A stretch of 58,724 nt of DNA from Palleronia marisminoris (GTDB lineage: Bacteria; Pseudomonadota; Alphaproteobacteria; Rhodobacterales; Rhodobacteraceae), in contig NZ_FWFV01000014.1 of assembly GCF_900172315.1 (NCBI RefSeq), positions 1 to 58,724 of the forward strand. The letters run 5' to 3'. Shown here piece by piece: positions 5,837-24,587 of this stretch. The first letter of the stretch is position 1. Every line of letters begins with the position of its first letter. Both the position numbers and the translations under genes were made by a program. Under the pieces are notes generated by a model. It was given only the letters and a program-made list of their open reading frames with translations, was not told the origin of the DNA and searched no databases.

Positions 5837-7105
5837 TTATTGGACATCACGTCTCGGGCCGGCCAAACACGTCGTGCCATTCAGGATGGCGGTCGAACTT
5901 TGCCTTCGCGAACGGGCAGATTGGTAGGATGACGACTTTTTGCGCCGCGCATCATCGGTCGCCTGTCGCACCAGCCTCTCTCTGATCTTGCGGCCACGCA
6001 GGGCCGCAGAAACTTCGGTGTGGTCAATGATGATCATCCCGGCGCCGGCGCGGCTGTAGGTCATCTCGGCCTCGTGGCCATCGATGACCAAGTGGTAACG
6101 TCCCTTCGACGCGCCATCTTCCCGTTCAACCTTGACGTCGCTGGGCGTGGGCGCAGCCTTTTCAAGGCTCGCGTTCTGCCGCCGCACCTGGCGCGGTTGC
6201 CCTTGTGCGCATTCCAGAAGGTCGCGGTCCCACTTGCCTAGGTCGGCGGCCGCCTCGTAGGTCGGGACCAGGAAAGCCATCAGGGCTTCGTCGGGATCGG
6301 CTGCACTCTGCACGGCATCGTAGGGCAATATGAATTCCGACAGGCCGTCATGCCAGAAGGCCGCATCGGGTCTGATCAGCGCGCTGCGATAACCGCCCGG
6401 CACAGGATAGGCGTAGGCATAGAAGGCCGGATAGTCGATCCCGTTACCGCCCGGCCAGAAACCTGCCGAGGACACTTCGCGGTCATAAGCTTCCCGCGCC
6501 ACGTCGTCGGGGAGGGACGGAACGCCGGCAGGGTGGAGTGGCGCACGTCGCCCCGAGAAACGCGTGACCGCAAGATCCAGCGCGCCCCAGAACAGGTGAA
6601 CGGGACTGAACTTGTCGAGAAAGGAGGTCCGGAACCTGCCCATCACCCTGTCGATCGCCACAAGGGCCTGATGGTAGCGCTGTACGGAGTCCCGGTCATA
6701 GGGTCGGTCCCGATGATCCTCTCTGAACGGGACTGGGTCAGGCACCTCGTTTGGGGTGTCGTTGAAACTCGACGTGCCCCCGAGGTCGGTAATCAGCTGC
6801 ACGAAGTTCGCGCGGAACGCCGCGACCGTGGTCGGCCCGAGCGCGAACATTGCAGCGCGGCCGCTGCCGCAGGTGCCCACGATCTTGTGCTCCAAGAAAT
6901 TGAACCTGAATTCGATGCCGGGACCGTCCGGTATGGTCGACGATGTCAGGCCTGTTGGCGTAACATAGAATGTCGCGTTCCAAGCATGGTTGAGCCAAGG
7001 CGTGTGCGCCAGCCTGTATTTGCCGACGATCTGCAGGTACAGATGCAGGGCGGAACAGCTCTCACGCCATTCAAGGTGGTCGAGTTGGGGCCATTTGGTG
7101 CTCAT
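5837..7105 (-). CDS. DUF5996 protein fused to a GNAT acetyltransferase domain, C-terminal frameshift
   Basis: Residues 1 to about 305 match the DUF5996 family, with typical Trp- and His-rich motifs such as VHLFWGALDLA and HPAGVP. After a polar linker, residues about 340-390 form the start of a small NATD1/YjdJ-type acetyltransferase domain (YHLVIDGHEAEMTYSR). As read, the last 32 residues are Ser/Arg-rich and unlike the family. Adding one base in the run of five T at 5937-5941 restores a tail with CPFAKAKFDRHPEW and an immediate stop, which is the expected end of this acetyltransferase. The gene is therefore a fusion with a recent frameshift or a sequencing slip. The start at 7105 follows a GGAGA ribosome binding site. 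DUF5996 has no known function. A pirin gene lies upstream on the same strand. Confidence 0.75.
   Translation of the reverse strand: MSTKWPQLDHLEWRESCSALHLYLQIVGKYRLAHTPWLNHAWNATFYVTPTGLTSSTIPDGPGIEFRFNFLEHKIVGTCGSGRAAMFALGPTTVAAFRANFVQLITDLGGTSSFNDTPNEVPDPVPFREDHRDRPYDRDSVQRYHQALVAIDRVMGRFRTSFLDKFSPVHLFWGALDLAVTRFSGRRAPLHPAGVPSLPDDVAREAYDREVSSAGFWPGGNGIDYPAFYAYAYPVPGGYRSALIRPDAAFWHDGLSEFILPYDAVQSAADPDEALMAFLVPTYEAAADLGKWDRDLLECAQGQPRQVRRQNASLEKAAPTPSDVKVEREDGASKGRYHLVIDGHEAEMTYSRAGAGMIIIDHTEVSAALRGRKIRERLVRQATDDARRKKSSSYQSARSRRQSSTAILNGTTCLAGPRRDVQ
5937..5941. other. Homopolymer frameshift in the DUF5996-GNAT gene
   Basis: A run of five T (five A on the coding strand) marks the point where the acetyltransferase reading frame leaves its family pattern. 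One extra A would join the Lys-Lys codons to the in-family VVILPICPFAK segment. Confidence 0.6.
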
Positions 7106-7203: not shown

Positions 7204-8139
7204 TCAATTCGGCAAGGGGATGTGCTCATCGCGGTCATCGGCCGGAAGATCAAAGCGCCCCTTACCCCAGTTAGCGGTGCGCCATTCGATCTTGGCCGCT
7301 TCGATACGCTCCTGCGATGAGGCGACGAAGTTCCACCAGATGTAACGGGGGCCGGGAAAGGTCGCGCCTCCAAGGATCATCAGCCGCGCGCCCCGCTCGC
7401 CGGCGGCGACCGTGATCCTGTCGCCCGGACGGAAGACCATCATCCGACCCGCATCGAAATCCTGTCCCGCGACCGAGATGGAGCCGTCAACGATGTAGAT
7501 GCCCCGGTCTTCGTGATCATCCGGCATCGGCAGCCGGCTTCCCGGCTCGAGCTGAACATCGGCGTAGAAGGTTTCCGACAGCATCGTCGCAGGAGCGGTC
7601 TGGCCATAAGCGCTGCCGAGGATAAGCCGCACCGAGACGCCACTGTCCTCGATCATCGGCAACGTCTCCTTGCCGTGATGCTCGAAACTGGGTGCCACAT
7701 CTTCATGTGCGTCAGGCAGGGCCAGCCACGTCTGGATTCCGAACAGGCCGTTGGGACCGCTGCGGGCCGCAGCGGAGGTCCGCTCCGAATGGGTCACGCC
7801 GCGCCCGGCGACCATCCAGTTCAGCGCGCCGGGGCTGATGATCTGGTCGGCGCCGGTGCTGTCCCGATGGTGGAAGTCGCCGCGATAAAGATAGGTCACC
7901 GTGCCAAGGCCGATATGCGGATGTGGCCGGACGTCGATGCCCTGGCCGGTCAGCAGTTCGGCCGGCCCGGCCTGATCGAAGAAGATGAACGGTCCCACCA
8001 TCTGCCGCTTTGGGGCGGGCAGGGCGCGCCGGACCTCGAAGCCGCCGAGATCGCGGGACCGCGGAACGATGAGCGTTTCGATCGCGTCCACGCTGACATC
8101 GTCGGGACAGCCCGGTTCGAGTGCAGGATTCCAGCTCAT
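7204..8139 (-). CDS. Pirin family protein (copy 1)
   Basis: The 311-residue product is a bicupin pirin. The N-terminal cupin holds the metal-binding pattern HPHIGLGT, then FHHRDSTG and VTHSER, and the C-terminal cupin ends with a WWNFVAS segment. Bacterial pirins bind iron. Some have quercetin 2,3-dioxygenase activity and others modulate redox metabolism, and the substrate here is unknown. The start at 8139 follows an AAGGA site. The gene lies 29 bp downstream of the catalase gene on the same strand, so the two are probably cotranscribed. A paralogue of exactly the same length lies at 33917-34852. Confidence 0.92.
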   Translation of the reverse strand: MSWNPALEPGCPDDVSVDAIETLIVPRSRDLGGFEVRRALPAPKRQMVGPFIFFDQAGPAELLTGQGIDVRPHPHIGLGTVTYLYRGDFHHRDSTGADQIISPGALNWMVAGRGVTHSERTSAAARSGPNGLFGIQTWLALPDAHEDVAPSFEHHGKETLPMIEDSGVSVRLILGSAYGQTAPATMLSETFYADVQLEPGSRLPMPDDHEDRGIYIVDGSISVAGQDFDAGRMMVFRPGDRITVAAGERGARLMILGGATFPGPRYIWWNFVASSQERIEAAKIEWRTANWGKGRFDLPADDRDEHIPLPN

Positions 8140-8168: not shown

Positions 8169-9632
8169 TCAGAATTGCGGGTCCAGCGCGTCCAGCGCAG
8201 CGCAGACGCCGGCGCCATACTCAGGATGGACTTGTTGGAAGAGGTCGATCTGCCGCTCGATGATCTCAACAGGTACACTGCGCATTGCTGCTGCAACGTT
8301 GGTAAACAGTCGATCTTTCTGTGCGGCGTCGAACAACTCGAACAGCGCCCGCGGCTGACTGAAATCGTCGGTGCCGTCCCGATGATCGAACCTGGCAGCC
8401 GGACCATTCAGGTCGAGCGGCGGTTCGGTGAACGCGCTGTCCTGCCGTGGGCCGCCGAAGCTGTTTGGCTCGTAGTACGCATCGGGACTGGCCGCGTTGG
8501 CGAAGAAACGCATGGCCCCGTCCTTGTGGTAATGATGGACCGGGCATCTCGGCCTGTTGACCGGCAGCGCTTCGTAATGGGTTCCGAGCCGATAGCGATG
8601 TGCATCCGCGTAAGCGAAGATCCGGCCCTGAAGCATCCTGTCCGGTGAGTGGCCGATGCCCCGGACGACATTCGACGGGCTGAAGGCCAGAAGCTCGACC
8701 TCGGCGAAATAGTTGTCGGGATTGCGGTTGAGTTCGAGCATGCCAATCTCGATCAGCGGGAAGCCCGCGTGGGGCCAGACCTTTGTAAGGTCGAACGGGT
8801 TGAACGATAATGCGCCCGCCTCGGCCTCCGTCATGATCTGAACCTGCACGGTCCACTGGGGAAACTCCCCAGCCTCGATCGCGCCGAACAGGGCTTCCTG
8901 ATATCCCTCGCGCGTTTCACCGATGACCTTCTCCGCCTCGGCGTGGGTATAGTGGCGATGTCCTTGCCGCGTCTTGAAGTGGAACTTGACCCAGACCCGC
9001 TCGCCTTTGTCATTCCACAGGCTGTAGGTGTGACTGCCGTAACCATTCATGTGCATCGGGCTGACGGGGAGACCTCGGTCGGAAAAGAGCATCGTTATCT
9101 GGTGCAGGCTCTCGGGCGACAGCGACCAGAAGTCCCACATCGCCGTCGGCGACCGCAGATTGGTCCGCGGGTGGCGTTTCTGCGTATGAATGAAGTCGGG
9201 GAACTTGAGCGGATCACGAACGAAGAAGACCGGCGTGTTGTTGCCGGCGAGGTCCCAGTTGCCTTCCTCCGTGTAGAACTTGAGCGCGAAGCCACGCACG
9301 TCCCGTTCATGGTCGGCCGCGCCCATTTCTCCGGCCACGGTAGAAAAGCGCGCAATCATCGGCGTCTCAGTGCTGGGTTGCAGCACACGGGCGCAGGTCA
9401 GATGCGAAATGTCGCCTGTGATCTTCAACGTTCCATGCGCGCCCCAGCCCTTGGCGTGGACGACGCGCTCGGGAATCCGCTCGCGGTTCTGGTGCGCCAG
9501 TTTCTCGATCAGATGCCAGTCCTGCATAAGGACCGGTCCCCGATCGCCCGCAGTGAGGCTGTTCTGGTTGTCAGCGACCGGCGCGCCGGCTGTGGTTGTG
9601 AGACGGAGTGTCGAAGGTTCTTGAGGAGGCAT
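8169..9632 (-). CDS. Monofunctional haem catalase, small-subunit type
   Basis: The 487-residue sequence has the full haem-catalase core: the distal His in [11 protein letters not shown] (His59), the distal Asn in [16 protein letters not shown], and the proximal Tyr in the [14 protein letters not shown] helix. The length matches clade 3 small-subunit catalases, which break hydrogen peroxide into water and oxygen in the cytoplasm. There is no signal peptide. A TetR gene lies upstream on the same strand and a pirin gene 29 bp downstream, so a stress-response operon is likely. No OxyR-type regulator is seen nearby. The start ATG at 9632 has an AGGA site about 8 bp upstream. Confidence 0.95.
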
Positions 9633-9887
9633 CGTCGGTCCTGTTCAATCGAGCCATGCCGGCTTCCGGCTTAGTGCGCTTGCCGTCTCGTGATCATGCT
9701 GGCAGGCGACAGATTCTGCACAGAACTGCGCATTGATCAGAGTTCTAGCGGACGAATTAAGGCTCTACGTCGCTGGATCTGCTGCAAAGATGCCAATCTT
9801 GCGACTTGGTTCCGTGGCCGGTCGGCCTTAGACGGCGACCTTCGCGCTGCCGGGGTGACCTGTCTGCGCCCGGCAGCGCTGCTTGTG

Positions 9888-10511
9888 CTAGGCGCTGAAG
9901 CAGCAGGCCTTGATGCCGGCGTCAATGGCGATGACCTGCCTGTCGAGTTCGGCCCTCGTGACGTTTTTGCCTTGGATGATCATCCGCATGTAGAGGGGGG
10001 AAAAGAGCAGATCGAGCGCCAGCTCCCTGTCGAGGTTCTCGTGCAGTTCGTGGCGGTTGATGGCGCGATCCAGCAAACCATGCCCGAACTGTCGGCGTGC
10101 CATGGCAGCGCGGTCCAGTACCGTCGCCAGTTCGCCCGATCGCAAGCGTTCGGCGACCAGATCGGCGATGATCCGGCGGACCAGTGGATGCCGCAGCACA
10201 GTGCGCGTGGCTTGAAGAAATGCTCGGGCATCCGCTTTCAGAGATCCATGATCGGTGGGATCCAGCATCGCGATCTCAATGCTGGCGATCGCGTCCGACG
10301 CGAACTCGCGTTTCGAGGCCCATCTCCGGTAAATTGCGGCCTTGCCGATCCCCGCGCAGGCAGCCACGCGTTCAAGGCTTATCCCCACATATCCGGTTCT
10401 TGCCCACTCCTCGAACAATGCCCGAAACAACTTGTCCGTCAGGTCAGGGCGGATCACTGCCGCTCCGCTCGGTTTGCGCTTCTTACTGACGCCGATACTC
10501 TTGCGTTCCAT
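9888..10511 (-). CDS. TetR/AcrR family regulator, left copy
   Basis: The 207-residue protein has an N-terminal TetR helix-turn-helix at about residues 25-70 (ISLERVAACAGIGKAAIYRRW) and a helical ligand domain after it. It closely resembles the TetR protein at 19166-19780. The two share the opening MERKSI, the PSGAAVIRP segment and most of the helix-turn-helix. The gene diverges from a pair of AraC genes. A 16-bp imperfect palindrome lies 22 bp before the start and is shared with the other copy, which suggests autoregulation and control of the AraC pair. The ligand is unknown. Confidence 0.9.
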   Translation of the reverse strand: MERKSIGVSKKRKPSGAAVIRPDLTDKLFRALFEEWARTGYVGISLERVAACAGIGKAAIYRRWASKREFASDAIASIEIAMLDPTDHGSLKADARAFLQATRTVLRHPLVRRIIADLVAERLRSGELATVLDRAAMARRQFGHGLLDRAINRHELHENLDRELALDLLFSPLYMRMIIQGKNVTRAELDRQVIAIDAGIKACCFSA

Positions 10512-10533
10512 CCACTACCTCTTTAATGTGAAC

Positions 10534-10549
10534 GGAGCGGTATCGTTCC
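10534..10549. promoter_or_regulatory. Candidate TetR operator, left
   Basis: Read toward the TetR gene the site is GGAACGATACCGCTCC, an imperfect palindrome (GGAACG / CGCTCC). It lies 22 bp upstream of the TetR start and between the divergent TetR and AraC genes. Thirteen of 16 bases match the site before the right-hand TetR gene. Operator function is inferred. Confidence 0.6.
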
Positions 10550-10609
10550 GATCATGCCGTGTGAAGAGGTGGTCGAGGTGGGGTAATGCCGCCTCACAGG
10601 AGACACGAC

Positions 10610-11548
10610 ATGGTACGGCCTGCGTATGCGTCTTCCTCGCAATGGTACTATGACGGACCACTGGGGTCCTATGTGCGCACGTTGAAATCCCCGGGCGGAG
10701 TCCTCGATCTCTTCGAAGTAGCGCGACCGGCCGGGGATATGTCTCGCCCGGGGCTGCCGGATATCGTGCTGTATCAGGACATGATGGGCAGTAGCCGTGT
10801 GAGCGGGGACTTGGGCGGGGGACGGTTCGATATAACGAGCGAGAAAGGTGGCATCTGCCTCGCCGCGCCGAACTTTTCCACCTCCGCGATCATGGAAGAA
10901 AGCCATCAGCTTCGCAGCTTGGCGTTCCCGACGGCGCAGTGGCAAAGCGTGCTCGATGAAGCCGGCGAGGGTCGGTTCTCGTTCGACAGTGCCTCGATCT
11001 ACGGTCACATGTTCGACTCGCCGGCCATCAGATCCCTGCTCCGGAACCTGTGGGTCCTTGGCGATGAAGAAGGTGCGCCCTCGCGTCTGCTGGCGCGGGC
11101 CGCAGGCTGCGAGATCCTGGCCGAGCTGTGTCGGCTGAGCGGGACACCGTTCGCGCCAGCAAAGGGCGGCCTTGCGCTCTGGGCCGAGCGGCGCTGCGTG
11201 GACCTGATGCGCGCGAGGCTCTCGGAGGATATCTCCCTTGATGAACTGGCCGCCGAGGCGCAGCTCTCTCCGTTCCATTTCGCCCGCATGTTCAAGCAAA
11301 GCGTCGGCGTGCCGCCACGAGTGTACCTGACGCGGTTGCGCATGGAGAAGGCCTGCGAACTGCTCGAACAGACGGACCTGTCGATTACTGAGATCGCGCT
11401 CGAGGTCGGGTATTCGTCCAACCAGGTCCTCGCCCGGGTATTCGTCAAGCATCAACGCATGAGTCCTACTGATTATCGTCGGGCGGTTCGCAACCCGCCG
11501 CGCCGAGTGCTGGGAGCGGCGACTACAGCATCCAACGCACAGCGATGA
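10610..11548 (+). CDS. AraC family regulator with cupin-type N-terminal domain, copy A1
   Basis: The product has 312 residues from the ATG at 10610, which is preceded by a CAGGAG site 7 bp upstream. The N-terminal half resembles the cupin-6 sensing domain of AraC regulators. The C-terminal 100 residues carry two helix-turn-helix motifs, with ISLDELAAEAQLSPFHFARMF first and ITEIALEVGYSSNQVLARVF second. The DNA-binding part is very similar to three other AraC proteins in the window. The stop overlaps the start of copy A2 by 4 bp (ATGA). Regulators of this type are often linked to alpha/beta hydrolase or oxidoreductase genes, and three hydrolases follow here. The inducer is unknown. Confidence 0.9.
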   Translation: MVRPAYASSSQWYYDGPLGSYVRTLKSPGGVLDLFEVARPAGDMSRPGLPDIVLYQDMMGSSRVSGDLGGGRFDITSEKGGICLAAPNFSTSAIMEESHQLRSLAFPTAQWQSVLDEAGEGRFSFDSASIYGHMFDSPAIRSLLRNLWVLGDEEGAPSRLLARAAGCEILAELCRLSGTPFAPAKGGLALWAERRCVDLMRARLSEDISLDELAAEAQLSPFHFARMFKQSVGVPPRVYLTRLRMEKACELLEQTDLSITEIALEVGYSSNQVLARVFVKHQRMSPTDYRRAVRNPPRRVLGAATTASNAQR

Positions 11549-12456
11549 ACGTGCCAGCCTATTCTTCGTATCTGCAATGGTATAGCGAGGGTCAGCTCGG
11601 GTCCTATGTGCGAACACTAAGATCAGCCGGCGAAATGCTCAGTTTGCTGGAGGCCGCGCCGCCACCCGGAGACAATTCCGGCCCCGCTGTTCCGGATCTC
11701 GTCCTGGCCCAGGACATGCTTGGAGGGAGCAAAGTCACCGGCAACTTGGGAGGGGGGCGTTTTGACGTAATGAGCAAAAAAGGGGGCTTGTTCCTGGCGG
11801 CACCGCACTTTGCACGTACTTCTATCGTGGACATCAACCATCAGATACGCGCCGTGGCATTTCCTGTCGCGCAGTGGCAGACTATCATGGAAGAATCCGT
11901 AGACGGCCAATTTGCATTCGACTTTGCCCGTGTCCATGACGGAATGTTTGACTCGCCTGCAATCCGGTCAACGCTTCGGAAGCTATGGTCTCTTTGCGAA
12001 GACGAAGGGGCGCCCTCGCGTCTGCTGGCGCGTGCGGCAGGCTGCGAAATCCTCGCCGAACTCTGCCGCTTAGGCGGGGCGCCGTTTACTCCGGCCAGAG
12101 GAGGCCTTGCGTCTTGGGCCGAGCGCAACGTGCGGGATCTGATGCGCGCGCGGCTTTCGGAGGATATCAGCCTCGACGAACTGGCCGCTGAGGCGCAGCT
12201 GTCGCCATTTCATTTCGCCCGCATGTTCAAGCAGAGCGTCGGTGTGCCTCCACGCGTTTACCTGACGCGTTTGCGGGTGGAGAAGGCGTGCGAACTCCTC
12301 GAGCATTCGGACCTTCCGATCACGGAGATCGCACTGGACGTCGGGTATTCGTCGAACCAGGTTCTCGCCCGGGTGTTCAGCAAGCACATGTGCGTGACGC
12401 CGTCCGACTATCGGCGCGCCGTTCGAGATCCTGTGCGCAGTTTTGCGCTACGGTAA
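11545..12456 (+). CDS. AraC family regulator with cupin-type N-terminal domain, copy A2
   Basis: The 303-residue protein is a tandem paralogue of A1, with its start codon inside the A1 stop (ATGA). The N-terminal cupin-like half is more diverged than the C-terminal helix-turn-helix half, where LSPFHFARMFKQSVGVPP is identical to A1. Two tandem regulators translated together, with nearly the same DNA-recognition helices but different sensing halves, could form heterodimers or read different ligands at shared sites. That is inference. It faces the hydrolase gene at 12679 tail to tail. Confidence 0.9.
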   Translation: MNVPAYSSYLQWYSEGQLGSYVRTLRSAGEMLSLLEAAPPPGDNSGPAVPDLVLAQDMLGGSKVTGNLGGGRFDVMSKKGGLFLAAPHFARTSIVDINHQIRAVAFPVAQWQTIMEESVDGQFAFDFARVHDGMFDSPAIRSTLRKLWSLCEDEGAPSRLLARAAGCEILAELCRLGGAPFTPARGGLASWAERNVRDLMRARLSEDISLDELAAEAQLSPFHFARMFKQSVGVPPRVYLTRLRVEKACELLEHSDLPITEIALDVGYSSNQVLARVFSKHMCVTPSDYRRAVRDPVRSFALR

Positions 12457-12678
12457 TTTTCACTGGCTCCGGCTGCAGGCACAGCGCCCCGGCTCTGAAT
12501 CGCTCGGCCCACCAGATCAAGGTCATTGGACTTGAGCGTTCCACGCCGCTTCTGCCACGCTGAGCTGCTCAGAACACGGAGGATTGCCGAAGTGGCGCTG
12601 GCCTCGTCCGTACTTCAGCGGGCCGGCGTCATGGAACATGAGCGCGGCCCGGTCCCGCGGCCCGCGCCGTAGTCGCCG

Positions 12679-13443
12679 TCAATCCACTGCTTCGGCCGCC
12701 TGTCGGATCACGTCGGCCACGTCGGCGGGGTTTGTCATTGTCAACATGTGACCATTCTCGATTTCCACGACCGTCGAACCGGCCCGCTCCGACATCTGCC
12801 GCTGCAGGTCGGGGGGAATGGTCCGGTCGAGGGTGGCGATGACCGACCAACTCGGCTTCTCGGCCCACGCCGCCGATTGTGTCTCGTATTCGAGGATGGA
12901 CGCGTTGGATGCTGCCTGCGACCTTGCGACGAAGATGGCGTCTTCAGCCGACAGACCGTTGCCGACGACCGAGAGAAAGCCGTCTTCATGGATCAGGTAG
13001 TGGCCATCTTCGAAGACCGTGAGCATGTCGGACGACAACGCGCCCGGATTGGAGGCCAGCAGGCTCCCGCCGCTTTCCCCTGCATCGGGTTGGAACGCGG
13101 CGACGTAGACGAGGCCCCTGACGTCCGGGTTCACGCCGACTTCGCTGATCACCACGCCGCCGTAGGAATGCCCGACCAGCAGGATCGGACCATCTTGAAC
13201 GTCGACGATCCGCTGGACCGCGGCAATATCGTCCTCGGTGGAGGTCAGCGGCATCTGCACGACCGTGACCTTGTAGTCCTCTGCGGTCAGGCGGTCATAG
13301 ACGGCGCGCCAGGTGCTGCCGTCGACATTCGCGCCATGGACGAGAACGATGTTGTTCACATCGGCGAGCGCCGCGCCTGACTGCGCGGTCACGACACCGA
13401 CAGCCATGGCGCTGGAAATCAGGAGAGCTTGTAGATTGTTCAT
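12679..13443 (-). CDS. Exported alpha/beta hydrolase, EstC/salicylate-esterase-like
   Basis: The 254-residue protein has an N-terminal signal peptide (LLISSAMAVGVV core, probable cleavage near ALA at residue 27). An alpha/beta hydrolase fold follows. The oxyanion region is LVHGANVDGS and the nucleophile is Ser93 in GHSYGG. An acidic residue lies in TLDRTIPP and the catalytic His in ENGHML near the end. This layout matches EstC and plant methyl-salicylate esterase-like enzymes, so it is probably a periplasmic esterase. A paralogue lacking a clear signal peptide is at 30686-31486. The start ATG at 13443 was chosen because it begins the signal peptide. The gene lies 52 bp after the dehalogenase-like gene on the same strand, so they likely form one operon. 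Confidence 0.85.
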   Translation of the reverse strand: MNNLQALLISSAMAVGVVTAQSGAALADVNNIVLVHGANVDGSTWRAVYDRLTAEDYKVTVVQMPLTSTEDDIAAVQRIVDVQDGPILLVGHSYGGVVISEVGVNPDVRGLVYVAAFQPDAGESGGSLLASNPGALSSDMLTVFEDGHYLIHEDGFLSVVGNGLSAEDAIFVARSQAASNASILEYETQSAAWAEKPSWSVIATLDRTIPPDLQRQMSERAGSTVVEIENGHMLTMTNPADVADVIRQAAEAVD

Positions 13444-13495
13444 GATCTGGGTCTCGTTTTGATGTTGCTGCAGGGAGTCCGGTCTGCGCGAGTTG

Positions 13496-14425
13496 TCATG
13501 TCGGCATTCGGTTTTCGGGCATCGAGAACGTATCGGTGCCATTGTTTTCCATCGGTAGAACGCGACCAAGGAAGTCACGGATCAGCGTTGCAATTTCGCC
13601 GGCGTGGGTTTCCAATGCAAAGTGTCCGGCATCCAGAAGATGAACCTCGGCGTTCGGAAGGTCGCGCTTGTAGGCTATAGCGCCTGCGGGGATGAAGGCC
13701 GGATCATAGCGCCCCCACGTCGCCAGTAGCGGCGGACGATGCTGGCGGAAATACGACTGGAAGTCCGGATAGCGCGCCACATTGGTGCGGTAGTCACGGA
13801 TCAGGTCGAGCTGGATATCCTCCGCGCCGGGCCGCGCCATGTAGGCGATGGCGAGTTCGTATCCGTCGGGAGAAAGAAGCTCCGGGTCGGCTCCAGTTCC
13901 GTATTGCCAGTTCCTGATCGTGTCGAGTGACAACGACGGTCGGCAAGCTTCGCGGTTAGCTTCGCTCGCACCGCGCCAATAAGCCTCCCACGGTCCCCAC
14001 TGGTCGCTGAAGCCATCGACATGGGCGTTGCCGTTCTGGCTGATGATTGCGGAAACTCGCTCGGGGTGGCGCATTGCCAGACGCAGACCAGCCGGCGCGC
14101 CGTAATCGAAGATGTAAAGCGCACACCGGTCGAGCGACAGCGAGTCGGTGAACCCTTCGATCACGTCGGCGAGCCGGTCGAAGTTGTAGTCGAACGCCCC
14201 GCGTGGCGGTGACTTGGTCTGGCCGAAGCCAGGCAGGTCGGGCGCAATGAGCCGATAGCTATCAGCCAGAAGCGGAATCAGGTCACGAAACATGTGGCTA
14301 GCCGTCGGGAACCCATGCAGCATCAGGATAACAGGCGCGTCGGCCGGCCCGGCTTCGCGATAGATTACGTCGACCCCGCCGACCGGTTGGGTCTTGAATC
14401 TTGTACGTCTGGATTTGGAGTGCAT
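13496..14425 (-). CDS. Alpha/beta hydrolase of the epoxide hydrolase / haloalkane dehalogenase type
   Basis: The 309-residue sequence shows the oxyanion motif LHGFPTAS, the strand-turn segment DLPGFGQT, and an Asp nucleophile (Asp107) in the elbow YIFDYGAPAG. The catalytic His lies in LDAGHFALE. Asp rather than Ser as nucleophile places it with epoxide hydrolases and haloalkane dehalogenases. The residue after the nucleophile is Tyr, whereas most characterised members have Trp, so halide chemistry cannot be assumed. No signal peptide is present. It is the first gene of a two-gene unit with the exported esterase downstream. The substrate is unknown. Confidence 0.85.
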   Translation of the reverse strand: MHSKSRRTRFKTQPVGGVDVIYREAGPADAPVILMLHGFPTASHMFRDLIPLLADSYRLIAPDLPGFGQTKSPPRGAFDYNFDRLADVIEGFTDSLSLDRCALYIFDYGAPAGLRLAMRHPERVSAIISQNGNAHVDGFSDQWGPWEAYWRGASEANREACRPSLSLDTIRNWQYGTGADPELLSPDGYELAIAYMARPGAEDIQLDLIRDYRTNVARYPDFQSYFRQHRPPLLATWGRYDPAFIPAGAIAYKRDLPNAEVHLLDAGHFALETHAGEIATLIRDFLGRVLPMENNGTDTFSMPENRMPT

Positions 14426-15008
14426 CTCGAGTTTGCTCCGGATTGTTGAGCATTGGCAGGGGCGTCACTGACTTCGGTGGTCATCACCCTAGGACAGCCG
14501 CATTGTCGACCAACGACCGCTAGGCCCGGTCGGACTGCGGGCGATCACCTTGAGAATTGTCAGCCTTGTGGGGTGACCCTGGCGCTCGGTTCACTGAAAT
14601 GCGGCGCCGAGGCTGCCGCGTTGGTGCGATTCTTGCGGCCTTTGCGACTTTCAGGTGGTGGCGCATCTCGACCAGCAGGACCGGGTTCGAGGACAGGCAC
14701 TGAGGGATCGGCGATTGTCCGGACGGAGGCCGTGGTCCGCATCGGGCGATGTCAAAGGCCCGGAGATGACATTCTTTTGGCTCTTGGCCCCTGTCCACGT
14801 CTGTCGCGTTCTGGCGATGGGCCGGGACCACGGCCTGGCCCCGCCTGTGCGAATCGAAGGTCAGCAAGATCGGCACCAATCCGGCAGCCTCCGCGACGCG
14901 AGGCGCGGGAACGCTCGCTACGGTGTAGCCATGGGTCGGTGCATCGCGGCCCCGGCCTTCCCTGCAACATCCGGCAACCGCTGAAACCCGACCGAAGGAA
15001 CGGCAACC
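14426..15008. other. Intergenic region between divergent hydrolases
   Basis: These 583 bp separate two divergently transcribed hydrolase genes and must hold both promoters. Frames are open on both strands, but the translations are Arg- and Pro-rich and resemble no family known to me. A decayed gene is possible and was not recognised. An AAGGAA ribosome binding site lies just before 15009. Confidence 0.4.
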
Positions 15009-15839
15009 ATGGCAATCATCACCACATCGGACGGCACAAACCTCTTCTACAAGGACTGGGGACCGAAAGACGCCCAGCCGGTCTTGTTCCATCACGGCTG
15101 GCCGCTCAGCGCAGATGATTGGGACAACCAGATGCTGTTCTTTCTGGCCGAGGGTTATCGCGTGATCGCGCATGATCGGCGTGGGCACGGCAGGTCCGAC
15201 CAGACCGACACCGGCAACGATATGGACACCTACGCGGCGGATGTTGACGAGATCGTCAAGGCGCTGGACTTACAGAACGCAATCCATATCGGCCATTCGA
15301 CGGGTGGAGGCGAGGTTACGCGCTATGTCGCCCGGGCCGAGCGCGGCCGCGTGGCCAAGGCCATACTGATCGCTGCCATTCCGCCCCTCATGGTTCAGTC
15401 CGATGCGAACCCGGATGGTGTGCCGCTTGAGGTTTTCGATGCATTTCGATCCGCGGTGGCGGCGAACCGGGCCCAGTTCTTTCTCGATGTGCCAAGCGGA
15501 CCTTTCTACGGCTTCAACCGAGAGGGCGCGACCGTCAGCAACGGCCTGATCGGCAATTGGTGGCGCCAGGGCATGGCCGGCGGCGCAAAGGCGCATTATG
15601 ATTGCATCGCGGCTTTTTCCGAAACCGACCTAACCGAAGACCTGAAAGCGATCGCCGTTCCGGTCCTGTTCCTGCACGGCGAGGATGACCAGGTCGTCCC
15701 AATCGCGAACTCGGCGCACAAGGCGATCAAGCTGGTGCAGGACGGCACGTTGAAAACCTATCCAGGCTTGTCGCACGGCCTGTTCGCCACGCATCCTGAA
15801 GTCGTGAATCCGGATCTGCTGGCCTTCATTCGCGCCTGA
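15009..15839 (+). CDS. Alpha/beta hydrolase of the cofactor-free haloperoxidase / arylesterase type
   Basis: The 276-residue protein matches the length and pattern of non-haem chloroperoxidases (perhydrolases). The oxyanion motif is HHGWPLSADDW, HDRRGHGRS comes next, the nucleophile is Ser97 in GHSTGGGE, the acid is in GEDDQVVP, and the catalytic His is in LSHGLFATH. Enzymes of this kind hydrolyse aryl esters and form peracids that can oxidise halides. It is cytoplasmic by sequence. A GC-rich hairpin follows 22 bp after the stop. It diverges from the dehalogenase-like gene. The AraC genes on either side are plausible regulators, by position only. Confidence 0.92.
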   Translation: MAIITTSDGTNLFYKDWGPKDAQPVLFHHGWPLSADDWDNQMLFFLAEGYRVIAHDRRGHGRSDQTDTGNDMDTYAADVDEIVKALDLQNAIHIGHSTGGGEVTRYVARAERGRVAKAILIAAIPPLMVQSDANPDGVPLEVFDAFRSAVAANRAQFFLDVPSGPFYGFNREGATVSNGLIGNWWRQGMAGGAKAHYDCIAAFSETDLTEDLKAIAVPVLFLHGEDDQVVPIANSAHKAIKLVQDGTLKTYPGLSHGLFATHPEVVNPDLLAFIRA

Positions 15840-15860
15840 TACGCCTTCGTCATAGGTGAA

Positions 15861-15887
15861 CGGCGGTTGCGAGACTCGCGACCGCCG
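15861..15887 (+). terminator. GC-rich hairpin after the haloperoxidase-type gene
   Basis: CGGCGGTTGCGAG pairs with CTCGCGACCGCCG with a single wobble position, and lies 22 bp past the stop codon. There is no long T run after it, so it is a possible but not a textbook intrinsic terminator. Confidence 0.45.
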
Positions 15888-16023
15888 AAAGCGGTATATT
15901 ACTCAGGTCTGAGACCAGAGCGCTCTTTGGTCGGCGGAATTTGCTTGATTCACAGGACCACTGGTGTGTTCAACCCGAGCCCGATCGGGCCGTACCAGAC
16001 GTTTGAGGCAACAGGATAAAAGC

Positions 16024-16510
16024 GATGCGTGTTCTAGAGGTTGCCATCGCCGGCTTCGGGGGCGTGTGGCGCGCTACGACCGATCTTCTGCTGGCCCGCC
16101 GGATCGCTATCGGCGCGTCTATGGCGCCGACGTTTGCCTAGACGCGGTCTGCGGATCGCTCGCCGGCCTGGCCGATCCCTTCGGCCTGGAACCGGGGCGC
16201 CTGAACACCATTGAGCCAGGTCTGTCAGGCCCGGATTTCATCGGAACGAGCGGCGACGACATTCGCGTCGAGGCAGGGCCAAGCGATTTGCGCACCGGTA
16301 ACCGGGCCTTGCCTACATCCGCTCATCCCTCACGGCCGGGCGCCACGCCATCGTCATCTCGAAGGGGGCGCTCGTCTATAGCGGGCCGGAACTGCGCGCT
16401 CTGGCGGGGCGTCCGGTTCGATGCTGAAGCTCGGCGGCGCGGCCGCCGCAGCCCTGCCGACCATCGCCCTCATCGAACAGAGCTTGAAGGGCTGCGAGGC
16501 TCCTCGTCGT
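16024..16510 (+). pseudogene. Homoserine dehydrogenase-like remnant
   Basis: Across two or three frames the translation gives VAIAGFGGV (Rossmann loop), then a YGADV..DAVCGS segment, then AGRHAIVISKGALVYSGPELRALAG, and finally a LKLGGAAAAALPTIALIEQSLKGC stretch (here described in parts). This order is that of the NAD-binding half of homoserine dehydrogenase-like enzymes. The frame breaks after about 35 codons and again later. The substrate-binding half is missing after the LKGC segment. The remnant lies inside the symmetric regulator block and runs directly into the glutamine amidotransferase remnant. Confidence 0.6.
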
Positions 16511-16559
16511 ACTGGCGGACCGATCGCCGTCTACGATAACACTCGTTCGTCGCGACCGA

Positions 16560-17043
16560 GATTGCATTGCTCAGGGCACGCTTGGAAGCCGACCTGCCGA
16601 CGCTGGACATAGGCCTTGGCGCGCAACGGATCGCCGCAGCTCTCCGCGCTCGCGTCTACCCGGGGCCGACGAAAGAAATCAGCTTATTGCCACCTAAGCT
16701 TGCAAGCTCTGGCGAATTCGACCCTCTCGGCCCTTCGCGCGACGTTCATGTGTTGCACTGGCATGTCGACACTTTCGAGCTGCCTCGTGGCTACAGCCTT
16801 CTCGCGTCGACACCTGTATTCCGGCACCGGGCATTTTCTTGCGGGCCGAACGTGCTCGGGCTCCAGTTTATCCCGAAGTTCACGGCATCGATTTCGAACA
16901 CTGGCTCAGGACACGCAAATAAACTGGCGACCGCCAGTCTCAGCGCCGCGCGGCTGCGCAGCTATGCCGAACGATATGGCGGCACTCTCGAGAAAGCCGG
17001 CGCCGTGATGCTGGCGCAATGGGTGTCATGCCCCACTCGATGA
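16560..17043 (+). pseudogene. Class I glutamine amidotransferase remnant with lost catalytic residues
   Basis: The translation keeps the amidotransferase layout: EADLPTL, then LGAQRIAAAL.ARVYPG, then VHVLHWHVDTFELP, then GPNVLGLQF, and a C-terminal YGGTLEKAG segment. The nucleophile elbow normally reads GICLGAQ, but here it reads DIGLGAQ, so the catalytic Cys is gone. The usual QFHPE motif reads QFIPK, so the His and Glu of the triad are also lost. The N-terminal 60-80 residues are absent. All catalytic residues are replaced while the rest of the fold is conserved, so this is a decaying gene or a non-catalytic relic. A short frame from 16567 remains open. Confidence 0.7.
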
Positions 17044-17075
17044 TGGCTGCCATGGCAATGGTAGGCGGAGTTGCA

Positions 17076-17990
17076 TCAAGACGGAGCCAACCTCGGTCCT
17101 CCCCGAACCGCCCGGCGATATTCGGAAGGACTCGTGTGCCGATGTTTAAGGAACACCCGCGCGAGCACCTGATTTGAAGAGTAGCCGACCTCTAGCGCAA
17201 TCTGAGTGATTGGAAGGTCAGTCTGTTCAAGCAGTTCGCAGGCTTTCTCCACGCGCAATCGCGTCAGGTAGACGCGTGGCGGCATGCGGAGGCTTTGCTT
17301 GAACATGCGGGCGAAATGAAACGTTGAGAGCTCAGCCTCGGCCGCCAGTTCGTCAAGGGTGATATCTTCCGAAAGTCGGGCCCGCATCAGTTCCAGACAG
17401 CGCCGCTCTGCCCACGGCGCCAGTCCCCCGCGTGCCGTAGTGAGCGGCGAGCCAGCCAAGCGGCAAAGCTCGGCCAGAATCTCGCAACCGGCGGCCTGCG
17501 CCAAAAGTCGCGACGGCACACCCTCCTCATCGCAAAGACGCCAAAGCTGGTGCTGTAAAGACCGGATCCTGGGCGACGTGAACGCTCCGCGGTGCAAAGC
17601 ACCGAAATCGAGAGAGGAGGCCCGATTCGGGGCGTTCTCGAACATATGGCTCCAAGAACTGACAGGAAACGCTATGGAGCGAATCTGGTGGTCGCTGTCG
17701 ACTCTGATCGAGTTGGCGAAACTCGGCGCGGCAAGGAAGAAGTGGCCTCGCTGTGTCGTCGCATTGAAGCGTCCCGAGCCAAGGTCGGCGCTAACGCCAA
17801 AGCCCCCCCGAAGATCGTGGTGCAGGACGAGCTCGGGCACGGCGGGGTCCGACATCTCGACCGCTGGCATGGCAGTTTCGATCAGGTTGAGAAAGCCGCC
17901 GGAGGATTTTATCGTCCGGACATAGGGCGCAAACGGGCCGCCACGGAACCACTGGACGAAGGAGGAATAGCGTGGCGGCGTCATTTTCAT
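17076..17990 (-). CDS. AraC family regulator with cupin-type N-terminal domain, copy A3
   Basis: The 304-residue protein is the mirror partner of copy A2: it is the second gene of a tandem pair and its ATG overlaps the A4 stop by 4 bp. The C-terminal helix-turn-helix pair is very close to the other copies, but the recognition region has changes (LSTFHFARMFKQSLRMPP). The N-terminal half again matches the cupin-6 type. It reads into the dead glutamine amidotransferase gene tail to tail. The function of the pair is unknown. Likely targets are the flanked hydrolases or genes elsewhere. Confidence 0.9.
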   Translation of the reverse strand: MKMTPPRYSSFVQWFRGGPFAPYVRTIKSSGGFLNLIETAMPAVEMSDPAVPELVLHHDLRGGFGVSADLGSGRFNATTQRGHFFLAAPSFANSIRVDSDHQIRSIAFPVSSWSHMFENAPNRASSLDFGALHRGAFTSPRIRSLQHQLWRLCDEEGVPSRLLAQAAGCEILAELCRLAGSPLTTARGGLAPWAERRCLELMRARLSEDITLDELAAEAELSTFHFARMFKQSLRMPPRVYLTRLRVEKACELLEQTDLPITQIALEVGYSSNQVLARVFLKHRHTSPSEYRRAVRGGPRLAPS

Positions 17991-18928
17991 TCCCCTGCCG
18001 TCTCAAGCGCTGCGCTTGCGGATACAGAGATCTGGCGCACCGGATCGCGCACCGCCCGGCGATAGTCGGACGGGCTCATGCGTCGATGCTTGATGAACAC
18101 CCGCGCGAACACCTGGCTCGACGAGTAGCCGACCGTTAGCGCAATCTGAGTGATTGGAAGGTCGGTCCGTTCAAGGAGCTCGCAGGCTTTCTCCACGCGC
18201 AAACGCGTCAGGTAGACCCGTGGCGGCACACCGACGCTTTGCTTGAACATGCGGGCGAAATGAAACGGAGAGACCTTTGCCTCGACTGCCAGATCATCAA
18301 GAGAGATGTCTTCCGAGAGCCGCGCGCGCATCAGTTCAACGGAGCGCCGCTCGGCCCAAGGCGCGAGGCCGCCCTTGACTTGCCCGAACGGTGCCCCGCC
18401 CAATCGGCAGAGTTCGGCTAGGATCTCGCAGCCTGCCGCCTGCGCCAGCAGGCGCGACAGCATGCCCTCCTCAATCCGCAGAGCCCACAGGTTCCGAATC
18501 GCGAACCGGATAGTGGGCGACGCGAACGACCCCATGCTTAAATCCCGATAGTCTATGAAAAACTGGCCGTCGGTGGCTTCATCCAGAACGGACTGCCACT
18601 GCGCCAACGGAAACGACAAGCTGCGAAGCTCATGAGCGGCGTCAACAATGACCGTATTTGCGAACCTCAGAGCGGAGAGAAAAAAACCGCCCTTTTCGCT
18701 CCCTACATCGAACCGCTCCCCTCCCATATCTCCGATGACGCGGCTGCCGCCATGCAGATCTTGATAGAGGACGATATCCGGGACGGCAGGATCAGACATG
18801 TCGCCGGCCGGCTGCGCGGCTTCAAGCAGATGAATTGCACCACCTGCGGACGTCGTCGTGCGCACATAGCTCGCCAAGTGGCCGGCGCTATACCATTGGG
18901 CAAAAGAGGTATAGGCCGGCATGCTCAT
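17987..18928 (-). CDS. AraC family regulator with cupin-type N-terminal domain, copy A4
   Basis: The 313-residue protein is the first gene of the right-hand AraC pair and the mirror partner of A1. The start at 18928 has a GGAGA site 6 bp upstream. The DNA-binding half shares VSPFHFARMFKQSVGVPP with A1 and A2 except for one or two residues, and the second helix-turn-helix reads VGYSSSQVFARVF. The gene diverges from the right-hand TetR gene across about 240 bp. That gap is longer than on the left, where it is about 100 bp. Confidence 0.9.
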   Translation of the reverse strand: MSMPAYTSFAQWYSAGHLASYVRTTTSAGGAIHLLEAAQPAGDMSDPAVPDIVLYQDLHGGSRVIGDMGGERFDVGSEKGGFFLSALRFANTVIVDAAHELRSLSFPLAQWQSVLDEATDGQFFIDYRDLSMGSFASPTIRFAIRNLWALRIEEGMLSRLLAQAAGCEILAELCRLGGAPFGQVKGGLAPWAERRSVELMRARLSEDISLDDLAVEAKVSPFHFARMFKQSVGVPPRVYLTRLRVEKACELLERTDLPITQIALTVGYSSSQVFARVFIKHRRMSPSDYRRAVRDPVRQISVSASAALETAGE

Positions 18929-19127
18929 GCTGTGTCTCCAACGCTATCGGTGATCGGGCCGATCCGTCCGCCCCGCTCGCGCTTCGATCGGCGTCATTGC
19001 TCGATGCAAGCGTTTCCCTTTCAGGTCGCATGAAAAAATACCTGCGGTAATCCACGTGTCCGCGGCGCCCGCAACGGCTCTGAAGCCCCCGTCGAAGATC
19101 GTTTCGGCCCCTGTTCACAGCATGGCG

Positions 19128-19143
19128 CGAACGCTACCGTTCC
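19128..19143. promoter_or_regulatory. Candidate TetR operator, right
   Basis: The site CGAACGCTACCGTTCC ends 22 bp before the right-hand TetR start, exactly the distance seen on the left. It is palindromic (GAACG / CGTTC) and matches the left site at 13 of 16 positions. Operator function is inferred. Confidence 0.6.
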
Positions 19144-19165
19144 ATCGACAATGGGGGAATTCTGG

Positions 19166-19780
19166 ATGGAACGCAAGAGTATCGACGCGGGGAAAAGCGG
19201 GCGAAAACCGAGTGGGGCAGCGGTCATCCGGCCTGAACTGACCACAACGCTTTTCAAGGCGTTGTTTGAGGAGTGGGCAGAGACCGGCTATGCAGCAATA
19301 AGCTTGGAGCGCGTAGCGGCACGGGCGGGCGCAGGCAAGGCGGCAATATACCGGCGATGGCCGTCGAAAGTGGAGTTTGCGTGCGATGCGATACAGGTCG
19401 TTTGCCTCGGCCTGCCTGATTTAGGCGATTGCTGCTCCTTACGGAAAGAACTTGACGCATTTCTTCGAAAAACGCGGGTGGTTCTCCGACATCCGATGAT
19501 CCGCAAGATCATCCTGGATGCGGCAGCTGAACGAGACAGAACTCCCGAGCTTTCGGCGGTACTGGACGCCGTGGTTGCCGCGCGCCGACGATTCGGAAAC
19601 GGAATGCTGGATCGCGCTATCGCCCGCAACGAATTGCAACCCGACCTCGACAGGGAGCTTGCACTCGATCTTCTCGTATCGTCCATCTACATGCGTATGA
19701 TCTTGCGACGAAAAAACGTTTCAATCGCTGAACTCGACAAGCAGGCGGTTGTGATTGAATCCGCGATCAAGGCCTGCTGA
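19166..19780 (+). CDS. TetR/AcrR family regulator, right copy
   Basis: The 204-residue protein is a paralogue of the TetR at 9888-10511. Both begin MERKSI and share PSGAAVIRP, the helix-turn-helix ISLERVAARAGAGKAAIYRRW and the C-terminal DLDRELALDLL segment. The middle of the ligand domain is diverged, so the two may bind different molecules. The start ATG at 19166 was preferred over one 15 bp upstream because it aligns with the left copy, where the bases around the start are almost identical. The gene diverges from the A4-A3 pair. Confidence 0.9.
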   Translation: MERKSIDAGKSGRKPSGAAVIRPELTTTLFKALFEEWAETGYAAISLERVAARAGAGKAAIYRRWPSKVEFACDAIQVVCLGLPDLGDCCSLRKELDAFLRKTRVVLRHPMIRKIILDAAAERDRTPELSAVLDAVVAARRRFGNGMLDRAIARNELQPDLDRELALDLLVSSIYMRMILRRKNVSIAELDKQAVVIESAIKAC

Positions 19781-21732: not shown

Positions 21733-23115
21733 TTAACTCCTGCGCATCAAGATCATCTTCTGCTGGGTCAGATCTCGCATGGTGTAGGGGATTCCGCCGG
21801 TGCCGTAGCCGGACTGCTTGCGGCCGGCGAAGGGCATCCAGTCGGTCCGGAAGGCGGTGGGGTCATTGATCATCACCGCCGAGGCGTCGAGACGGTTGGC
21901 CGTGCGCATCGCGACGTCGATATTCTGCGCGAAGACGCTGGCCTGGAACGCAACGGGCAGGGAATTGGCCTGCGTGATGGCGGCGTCGAGATCGGTGTAG
22001 CGAGAAACCGCGACCACGGGGCCGAACACCTCCTGCGTCGAGATCTTCGCGTCCATGGCGGGATCAAGCAGCACCGCCGGCTGCAAGGTCGTTTCCGAAA
22101 GGCGTTGGCCACCGGTCGCCAGTGTCGCACCGCCGCCGATCGCCTCCTCAACCCATTCTGCGACCCGGTCGGCTTCGCGCGGCAGGATCAGCGGCCCGAC
22201 CTCAGTGTCTGCGAGGCTGGGATCACCGGTGCGCAACGTCTCGACGCGGGCGACGAGCCTTTGCGTGAAATCGTCGGCGATGTCCCTTTGAACGTAGATG
22301 CGCTGCGTTGAGACGCAAACCTGGCCTGCATGATAGTAGCCGCCCTTGACGATCGGCTCGATGATCTTGTCGAGATCAGCGCTGCGGTCGACGATGGCTG
22401 GTGCCAAACCGCCATGTTCGAGGGCCGAGCGCGCACCGTGGGCGAGCTTCGCATGCAGCTGCCAGCCGACCTTTGCCGAACCGATGAAGCTCAGGAAAGC
22501 GATGCGCCTGTCGGTCGCGAGCTTTTCGGCAAGCTCGTTGCCCTTAGGGATGAAGCACTGGCACCATGCCTCGGGTAAGCCGGCTTCATGGACCAGCGCA
22601 ACGAAGTTCAGGCAAGACAACGGTGTCGTGCCCGCCGGCTTGATGATGACTGGACAGCCTACGGCGATGGCTGGTGCGACTTGGTGGACGATCAGGTTCA
22701 GCGGATGATTGAACGCCGAGATTGCTGCGACGACGCCGATCGGTTCCCTGGTTGTGAAGGCCCAGCGGTCTTCCGACGCCACCGACAGCCCCATCGGAAT
22801 TTCGCGACCGCTTAGGTTGCGCAGTTCGTCTGCGGCATTGTGAACGCCGTCGATGGCGCGTTTTGTCTCGACGATTGCGTCGGGAAGGGGCTTTCCGCCC
22901 TCGCGGGCGATTTGCAGGGCAAAGTGATCGCGGTTGCCGTCCATCAGGCGGGCGAGCTCGCGCAGGATCGCAATGCGCTGGTGCGGCTTGAGCCACCCGT
23001 CGCGATCTTTGAAGACGCGCTCAGCTGCCTGCAGCTTGCGTTCCAAGGCGGCGGCATCATCGGTCGCGATCTCTGCGATTGGTTCGCGATCGTATGCCTG
23101 AACGACAGTCAACAT
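21733..23115 (-). CDS. NAD(P)-dependent aldehyde dehydrogenase
   Basis: The 460-residue protein has the aldehyde dehydrogenase layout: a Rossmann region with ISAFNHPLNL and KPAGTTPLS, the general-base Glu in ALEHGGLAP, the catalytic Cys in GQVCVSTQR, and the C-terminal EVFGPVV and PFAGRKQSGYG motifs. The Glu-containing motif reads LEHGG where most members have LELGG, a minor change. The gene is preceded by an AAGGAG site. It starts 43 bp after the stop of the interrupted acetolactate synthase-type gene, so the two probably form one operon. The substrate is not evident. The cofactor preference was not resolved. Confidence 0.92.
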   Translation of the reverse strand: MLTVVQAYDREPIAEIATDDAAALERKLQAAERVFKDRDGWLKPHQRIAILRELARLMDGNRDHFALQIAREGGKPLPDAIVETKRAIDGVHNAADELRNLSGREIPMGLSVASEDRWAFTTREPIGVVAAISAFNHPLNLIVHQVAPAIAVGCPVIIKPAGTTPLSCLNFVALVHEAGLPEAWCQCFIPKGNELAEKLATDRRIAFLSFIGSAKVGWQLHAKLAHGARSALEHGGLAPAIVDRSADLDKIIEPIVKGGYYHAGQVCVSTQRIYVQRDIADDFTQRLVARVETLRTGDPSLADTEVGPLILPREADRVAEWVEEAIGGGATLATGGQRLSETTLQPAVLLDPAMDAKISTQEVFGPVVAVSRYTDLDAAITQANSLPVAFQASVFAQNIDVAMRTANRLDASAVMINDPTAFRTDWMPFAGRKQSGYGTGGIPYTMRDLTQQKMILMRRS

Positions 23116-23158: not shown

Positions 23159-23379
23159 TCATCCGCAATTCACGTCGGGTGAGCGGTTGCGCAGCTCGTC
23201 GACCAGAACGCGGGTGTTTTCGGAATAGTCGATCGGCACGTCGACCAAGTGAACGCCGCCGCCGGCGAAGGCGGCCTCAAGCACCGCCACGAGATCCGCG
23301 ACCGCGCTCACCCGCGACCCGCGTGCGCCGTAAGCCTCGGCATAGCGCACGAAATCGGGATTGCCGAAGCTCATGCCGA
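23159..23379 (-). pseudogene. Acetolactate synthase-type gene, 3' part separated by IS1595 element
   Basis: The fragment encodes the C-terminal 70 or so residues of a thiamine diphosphate enzyme, with FGNPDFVRYAEAYGARG and VHLVDVPIDYSEN motifs that normally end acetolactate synthase large-subunit-like proteins. Joined to the fragment at 24580-26014 by removing the insertion and one copy of the 8-bp duplication, the frame is continuous (VDGYPD then FGMSFGNPDF). The restored protein would have about 551 residues. Confidence 0.85.
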
Positions 23380-23387
23380 AATCCGGA
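23380..23387. repeat. Target site duplication, left copy (AATCCGGA)
   Basis: The 8-bp sequence AATCCGGA flanks the IS1595-type element directly on the left and recurs at 24580-24587. Eight bases is the usual duplication length for this family. Confidence 0.9.
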
Positions 23388-24579: not shown

Positions 24580-24587
24580 AATCCGGA
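24580..24587. repeat. Target site duplication, right copy (AATCCGGA)
   Basis: This is the second direct copy of the 8-bp duplication made by the IS1595-type insertion. It lies immediately after the right inverted repeat. Confidence 0.9.

Follow-up and report, generated by a model that had tools for sequence, protein, structure and literature searches.

RamR is a TetR protein whose gene is divergent from ramA, and RamA is short and single-domain; MarA, SoxS, Rob, and RamA share a degenerate marbox. The ramR-ramA system of Salmonella and Klebsiella has a local repressor that restrains the gene for an AraC-family regulon activator, and a ligand releases it (PMC7216687). MarA, SoxS, Rob, and RamA are described as related AraC activators that respond to different stresses and have overlapping networks (PMC7216687; PMC10268841). 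Here we describe a locus that may combine features of both, on a 58,724-nucleotide stretch of Palleronia marisminoris DNA (the whole of positions 1 to 58,724 of contig NZ_FWFV01000014.1 in assembly GCF_900172315.1; hereafter, the window). In this locus, two TetR genes and four AraC genes form a mirror image around three genes for alpha/beta hydrolases. We think it likely (probability about 0.7) that the two sides are different descendants of one mobile, TetR-gated tandem-AraC module, placed tail to tail, with a common operator and probably a role in detoxification. This reading is based on the layout, the trees, the synteny, and the conservation, spacing, and co-occurrence of the operator. We found no published description of the regulon in searches of an open-access library, subscription journals being outside its scope.

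We refer to the left-hand genes as TetL, LA, and LB and to the right-hand genes as RB, RA, and TetR. According to the open reading frame (ORF) list and Pfam, TetL (9888..10511, reverse strand; TetR_N and TetR_C_11) diverges from LA (10610..11548, forward; its ORF opens at 10586) and LB (11545..12456, forward). On the other side, RB (17076..17990) and RA (17987..18928), both on the reverse strand, diverge from the right TetR (19166..19780, forward; its ORF opens at 19151). Between them lie H1 (12679..13443, reverse; Abhydrolase_6), H2 (13496..14425, reverse; Abhydrolase_1), and H3 (15009..15839, forward; Abhydrolase_1). (We picked the start codon of H1, and its N terminus looks, by eye, like a signal peptide.) An earlier sequence-only reading had described this mirrored layout and an exact 4-bp overlap within each AraC pair, and it was correct on both.

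All four AraC proteins match PF12833/PF00165 (the C-terminal double helix-turn-helix, or HTH) above the cut-off, and both TetR proteins match PF00440 (HTH) and PF16859 (ligand domain). In a structure model of LA, the one AraC protein that was modelled, the N-terminal part aligns to the sensor domains of BgaR and AraC and the DNA-binding part matches the domains of AraC, MarA, and AdpA. As modelled, LA is thus a canonical AraC fold with a cupin-like sensor of the BgaR/AraC type. By sequence, we found no solved chain that covers the N-terminal half.

Descent of the two halves

If the mirror were an old inverted duplication, as the sequence-only reading proposed, then the outer AraC proteins (LA and RA) should pair with each other, and so should the inner ones (LB and RB). 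From a scan of genome contigs we kept the best 80 of 203 relatives (78 loci); 55 loci (codes L008-L062) have the same AraC subfamily, at 58-87% identity. One tree had 80 rows, 5 of them outgroup. The other had 74 rows: the outgroup and six divergent rows were left out and five rows were added. In both trees, LB, RB, and RA each fall in a supported clade with other genera. In the 74-row tree, the sister of LB is the AraC in third place in Rhizobium sp. WL3 (99/86). RB shares a clade with the first AraC of Pelagibacterium and the second AraC of Paracoccus nototheniae (100/99, 80- and 74-row trees). RA lies in a 12-row clade (100/97, 74-row tree) and is 83% identical to its Chelativorans relative. 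For LA, the 74-row tree gives a 26-row clade (98/96) that includes the second WL3 AraC, and the 80-row tree leaves its place unresolved.

The proposed pairings were rejected by the approximately unbiased (AU) test, both for LA and RA as sisters (p = 8.2e-5, or 0.0030 with a later row set) and for LB and RB (p = 9.3e-6, or 0.0185 with the later row set). RA and RB as sisters were rejected as well (p = 0.00057, 74-row tree). As for the TetR proteins, TetL groups with most of the Rhizobiales TetRs (99/98 with 17 rows and 93/89 with 27 rows), and the right TetR lies in a clade with the TetRs of Pelagibacterium, Methylobrevis, and Aurantimonas (96/89, 27 rows). Pairing TetL with the right TetR gave an AU p of 0.138 with 17 rows and 0.0165 with 27 rows.

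The two sides are nonetheless similar. The AraC proteins are 61-70% identical to each other, with 45-57% identity in the N-terminal half and 77-84% in the C-terminal half, and the two TetR proteins are 64% identical. (The HTH halves had been called nearly identical; they are strongly similar, but this was an overstatement. The divergence of the N-terminal halves was described correctly.) The left and right DNA arms form imperfect inverted repeats, the best of which is 494 nt at 80%. Third codon positions are only 38-65% identical between copies, so any common origin of the halves would be old. Across the family, the median identity is 81% for the HTH versus 53.5% for the N-terminal half (2775 pairs from 75 members), and 10 of the 15 tandem AraC pairs at other loci also overlap by exactly 4 bp. 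Both traits that had pointed to a duplication are thus common among family members. We also considered gene conversion of the HTH halves and dropped it because the same contrast is seen across the 2775 pairs.

Many other genera have a half-module on its own. The clearest example is on a plasmid of Rhizobium sp. WL3, which has one TetR and three tandem AraCs whose types, in order, are RA, LA, and LB. RA is of the slot-1 (TetR-adjacent) type, LA of the slot-2 type, and LB of the slot-3 type. The two halves in the window therefore carry complementary parts of an array of this kind, with RB in addition. The right half also has its own gene order. Read from its right flank, it runs acetolactate-synthase-like gene (ALS), aldehyde dehydrogenase family gene (ALDH), TetR, RA, RB, glutamine-amidotransferase-like gene (GATase), homoserine-dehydrogenase-like gene (HSDH), and H3. 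Of eight relatives that we checked, L009, L019, L025, and L060 keep this order, with a catalase between ALDH and TetR and with one or two AraCs; a Rhizobiales locus is among the collinear ones. The departures are L015 (no GATase match), L024 and L020 (no ALS or ALDH), and L014, which differs. Next to the left half come H1 and H2, an arrangement shared with L014, which is from Rubrimonas.

In the window, tblastn found only fragments of HSDH and GATase, within 15992-17040. (The names come from the Pfam matches of an intact relative.) The HSDH-like remnant (15992..16498, forward) is in pieces in three frames, and the GATase-like remnant (16540..17040, forward) covers residues 67-234 of 234. ALS (23165..26062, reverse) is split at about 23387-24568 by a stretch that carries a transposase ORF. 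Because of these fragments and the split ALS, we consider that the right module shows decay; we saw no broken frames in TetL, LA, LB, H1, or H2. The enclosed genes thus differ by side (H1 and H2 on the left versus H3 and the GATase/HSDH remnants on the right), with no duplicated neighbours.

At a threshold of E <= 1e-60 or stricter, the AraC family was absent from all 13 genus mates. It was present in 2 of 390 genomes in a sample from the order, in 4 of 394 in a sample from the taxonomic family, and in 2 of 385 in a sample from the class (P. marisminoris itself and G1025). (In the order, family, and class samples, at most five candidates per genome were scored and our own genome was counted in each.) Beyond the alphaproteobacteria, we found it in Halomonas, Billgrantia, Aliidiomarina, Advenella, and two metagenome-assembled genomes. 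P. marisminoris has a fifth full AraC copy on contig C24 and a truncated copy on C21. We infer that the module has a horizontal origin.

The 47 genomes with the family had 79 matches (E <= 1e-60), with a single match in 25 genomes and two or more in 22. Their 11 pairs of neighbouring, non-tandem family genes less than 30 kb apart show no favoured orientation: 2 pairs converge, 4 diverge, and the other 5 share a strand. No genome of the 47 has two TetRs of at least 60% identity (19 have one), so the full six-gene mirror was seen in none of them. The mirror therefore looks accidental. Most likely, it is an accident of rearrangement or of separate acquisition. If our reading is true, then even so striking a mirror image does not need an inverted duplication to arise.

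The candidate operator and the predicted palindrome

We ran motif searches separately for each class of promoter, leaving out the last 26 bases before the start, and the runs on the catalase and H3 promoters yielded the same word. The core of this candidate operator, GCAAGANYGGCA, occurs 74 times in the 55 loci (1.02 Mb, with some loci overlapping; 72 distinct contexts), and it occurred once after one mononucleotide shuffle. The full operator is 42 bp, GCAAGAtCGGCAcC-N6-GCAg.ttC.GCgcC. It consists of two direct repeats, and its self-similarity is maximal at a shift of 20 bp (0.57; the next best is 0.38). For the operator matrix we used 55 sites from 34 loci, with the window excluded. (The repeats are offset by 20 in 55 of the 72 distinct sites, and the other 17 were omitted from the matrix.)

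The window has six sites of at least 26 bits, as compared to no sites of even 6 bits in 20 Markov-simulated windows. Two of them, which correspond to inverted repeat I12 of the DNA self-comparison, lie between H2 and H3: one is upstream of H2-H1 (14601..14642, reverse, 39.8 bits) and the other is upstream of H3 (14858..14899, forward, 42.5 bits). Another is upstream of the catalase gene (site 9767..9808, reverse, 38.2 bits; gene 8169..9632, reverse, labelled by the product name of its Rhizobium sp. WL3 homologue, 84% identical). The strongest (28328..28369, reverse, 43.0 bits) precedes a co-directional run of four genes on the reverse strand: an ORF with an isochorismatase-like N-terminal part and a SnoaL-like C-terminal part (27514..28260), a luciferase-like monooxygenase (LLM, 26431..27471), ALS, and ALDH (21733..23115). 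A fourth alpha/beta hydrolase, H4 (30563..31486, forward), is also preceded by a site (30458..30499, forward, 39.2 bits), and a weaker site (29173..29214, forward, 26.2 bits) precedes a DUF4260 gene at 29287-29820.

More broadly, there are 99 sites of at least 25 bits over 58 sources, found in 50 of them. Of these sites, 62 are upstream of an ORF that is common to at least three sources, including the isochorismatase-like gene (22), H3 (17), and catalase (8). (H3 relatives are present in 28 loci, with a median identity of 83%. SnoaL was considered as a name for the commonest target and was dropped: the two relatives tested are of the isochorismatase family.) Of 95 unique sites, 29 have a -10-like hexamer at an offset of 18-19 nt; every other offset accounts for 2 sites at most. 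Given the usual promoter spacing between -35 and -10, this places the proximal half-site at the -35 position, and the operator promoters may have a class II activator arrangement.

The operator also tracks the AraC family. With at most one mismatch, it is present in 44 of the 47 genomes with the family, while the reversed pattern is in 5 of 47. The exact operator was in none of 99 relatives without the family (our genome has 9), and at one mismatch it was in none of the 13 genus mates. In the class sample, it is found exactly in P. marisminoris and G1025, the same 2 of 385 that have the family, and in none of the other 383. Operators surround the modules of G1025 and Rhizobium sp. WL3, neither of which was used for the matrix, and Halomonas salipaludis has operators before ALS and before H3-HSD-GAT on a different contig from its AraC gene. 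In a comparison by clade that covered 24 of the 25 single-AraC genomes, the consensus is similar in RA-only, LA-only, and other clades.

Two further observations concern individual sites. In Phyllobacterium salinisoli (L009), the H3 operator is present twice in identical form, at 13868 and 15115, with about 1.2 kb between the copies. Elsewhere in the P. marisminoris genome, operators on contigs C18 (L116, 1023-1154), C24 (L117, 5973-6014), and C21 (L091, 7444-8076) lie near genes for zinc alcohol dehydrogenase, luciferase-like monooxygenase, and isochorismatase.

The TetR genes are associated with a different sequence. In both halves, the TetR gene is divergent from an AraC gene, with a predicted TetR palindrome between them. 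The palindrome, RRAACGNTANCGTTYY, recurs in 17 regions at a distance of 41-44 bases before the TetR start, and in two of them it is weak. In the window, it has one mismatch directly upstream of TetL (10534..10549) and one mismatch directly upstream of the right TetR (19128..19143). Overall, the window has 3 matches at two mismatches versus 1.05 expected, a count that is weak by itself.

Proposed mechanism and rival explanations

In the mechanism that we propose, each TetR would bind the palindrome in the divergent intergenic region and repress both itself and the AraC pair. A physiological signal or ligand would free the hold of TetR, and the tandem AraCs would be made; their genes overlap by ATGA, which makes translational coupling likely. 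Each AraC, with its own cupin-type sensor and ligand, would bind the common 42-bp operator and bring RNA polymerase to the promoters of catalase, the alpha/beta hydrolases, the isochorismatase-like/LLM/ALS/ALDH run, and others. On this proposal, TetR gates the AraC genes, and AraC is both the protein that binds the operator and the activator of the genes behind it. The operator-linked genes include catalase, four hydrolases, LLM, ALDH, and the isochorismatase-like gene, with GST and VOC genes after H4, which suggests that the regulon's purpose is probably detoxification or the breakdown of some organic compound. The sequence-only reading had suggested a two-input system. A system with several inputs does appear plausible, in a changed form: the sensors differ, the DNA-reading helices are similar, and there is probably one operator.

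Several results weigh against this reading. Three of the 47 AraC-containing genomes (G700, G707, and G740) have no strict match to the operator, although they carry weaker sites in their loci. Of the 55 loci, 7 lack any site that reaches 25 bits, and near the AraC of L044 and of L045 there is no site at all. Conversely, there is a slight excess of single-mismatch matches in genomes without the family, both in relatives (7 of 99, versus 4 for the reversed control) and in the class sample (31 of 383, versus about 20). Because the motif was learned from loci that were selected for AraC, its co-occurrence in 44 of 47 genomes is partly circular. The independent cases are few: G1025, the H. salipaludis contig, the WL3 plasmid, and the window itself. 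The sites that were compared across clades were picked with a single shared matrix, and 37 of the 99 sites were not assigned to a downstream ORF that is common to three sources. The matrix scan found no operator upstream of the AraC or TetR genes in the window, and we discarded autoregulation of AraC via the operator for this reason. As for the trees, bootstrap values had not yet stabilised in the one with 80 rows, and AU values depend on the rows (9.3e-6 to 0.0185 for LB and RB). Finally, LA and LB as sisters were not rejected (p = 0.185, 74-row tree), so LA and LB may have arisen by a local duplication.

We weighed three other explanations for these data. It is unlikely that the halves are functionally separate systems with different operators, with the 42-bp motif belonging to just one type of paralogue. 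The sensor halves are indeed only 45-57% identical, and since just one direct-repeat motif emerged, a second and rarer motif may have been missed; but RA-only, LA-only, and other single-AraC clades have a similar consensus (with sites from one matrix), and stretches of the HTH, for example H223-K229 and S269-F278, are for the most part invariant across 30 aligned members. We also find it quite improbable that a regulator other than AraC binds the 42-bp element, or that the element is a promoter feature that travels with the enzyme genes. This would fit with the discovery of the element in AraC-selected loci and with its presence at the target genes where AraC lies on a separate contig. Against it, dimers of AraC-family proteins are expected to bind direct repeats, and the element is a direct repeat with a 20-bp period; the exact site is absent from the 383 family-less genomes of the class; and the TetR palindrome is a different sequence.

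The least probable of the three is the inverted duplication, in which a TetR-AraC array was copied in inverted orientation and then diverged or lost members reciprocally. It would account for the exact mirror arrangement, in which each side has a 4-bp overlap, for the inverted similarity of up to 80% over 494 nt, and for the complementary members of the WL3-like array, as reciprocal loss would give; and with 17 rows the AU test leaves the TetR pairing standing. But both AraC pairings were rejected by the AU tests, as was the TetR pairing once 27 rows were used, and the enclosed genes differ. Also, none of the genus mates has the family, and 4-bp overlaps and conserved HTHs are frequent within it. 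The trees of neither AraC nor TetR support such an origin, and the occurrence of one half alone, which the sequence-only reading had named as evidence against its proposal, was seen many times. The pairing tests largely refute this origin, with a small remaining probability for a very ancient copying event in a longer array whose members were then lost reciprocally.

Returning to two descendants of one mobile module with a common operator, we give even odds to a more specific version, in which this is a mobile regulon with one operator and interchangeable sensors: tandem sets of the AraC paralogues (RA, LA, LB, and RB) would be picked up, lost, and reshuffled from genome to genome while the DNA-binding half and the operator stay fixed. 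If so, a bacterium could gain a new input to the same enzymes by acquiring one gene, and the window, with LA+LB and RA+RB, would have complementary sensors that feed one set of promoters. If our main reading is right, the regulon would also be a natural test of how paralogous activators retain a single DNA code as their sensors change, and it would offer a portable, well-defined operator/promoter unit.

Flanking genes and comparison with known systems

To the left of the locus, on the reverse strand, lie genes for a DUF5996 protein whose C-terminal part is acetyltransferase-like (5837..7105) and a pirin family protein (7204..8139, named from the product of its WL3 homologue, 86%), followed by the catalase. 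Between the right TetR and ALDH, on the forward strand, there is a transposase-like ORF (DUF772) and then an overlapping ORF with no Pfam match (19955-20918). The ALS-like gene contains an ORF for an IS1595-type transposase (23249-24574, forward; Pfam). The ORF at 27514-28260 is probably a fusion of two neighbouring genes; in Rhizobium sp. WL3, the isochorismatase-like and SnoaL-like genes are separate neighbours. Downstream of H4, on the forward strand, are genes for a glutathione S-transferase (GST, 31523-32212) and a glyoxalase/VOC protein (32209-33792). Another pirin family gene (33917-34903, reverse; Pfam) adjoins a LysR regulator, with no operator match there. Farther away, an ORF of 1215 amino acids (50655-54302, reverse) encodes a CheB-CheR-PAS-HWE histidine kinase.

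Among described proteins, the AraC/BgaR type is the nearest to the modelled sensor of LA, but the N-terminal halves of LA and RB differ from it in that they match no Pfam family. Among described circuits, ramR-ramA is similar in that a repressor gene is divergent from the gene for an AraC activator, with a palindrome between them (predicted, in the window). It differs in that the activators in the window have cupin-like sensors and are frequently found as two or three genes in tandem, and in that operators of the window's type stand before enzyme genes. The resemblance to MarA/SoxS/Rob/RamA is that several related activators would share one predicted operator. Here, though, the operator is a 42-bp direct repeat at a fixed distance from a -10-like element, and the paralogues are in tandem clusters, in a set that spans the alpha-, beta-, and gammaproteobacteria. 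By analogy, our best reading is that the system would work like ramRA plus mar/sox/rob, while being identical to neither.

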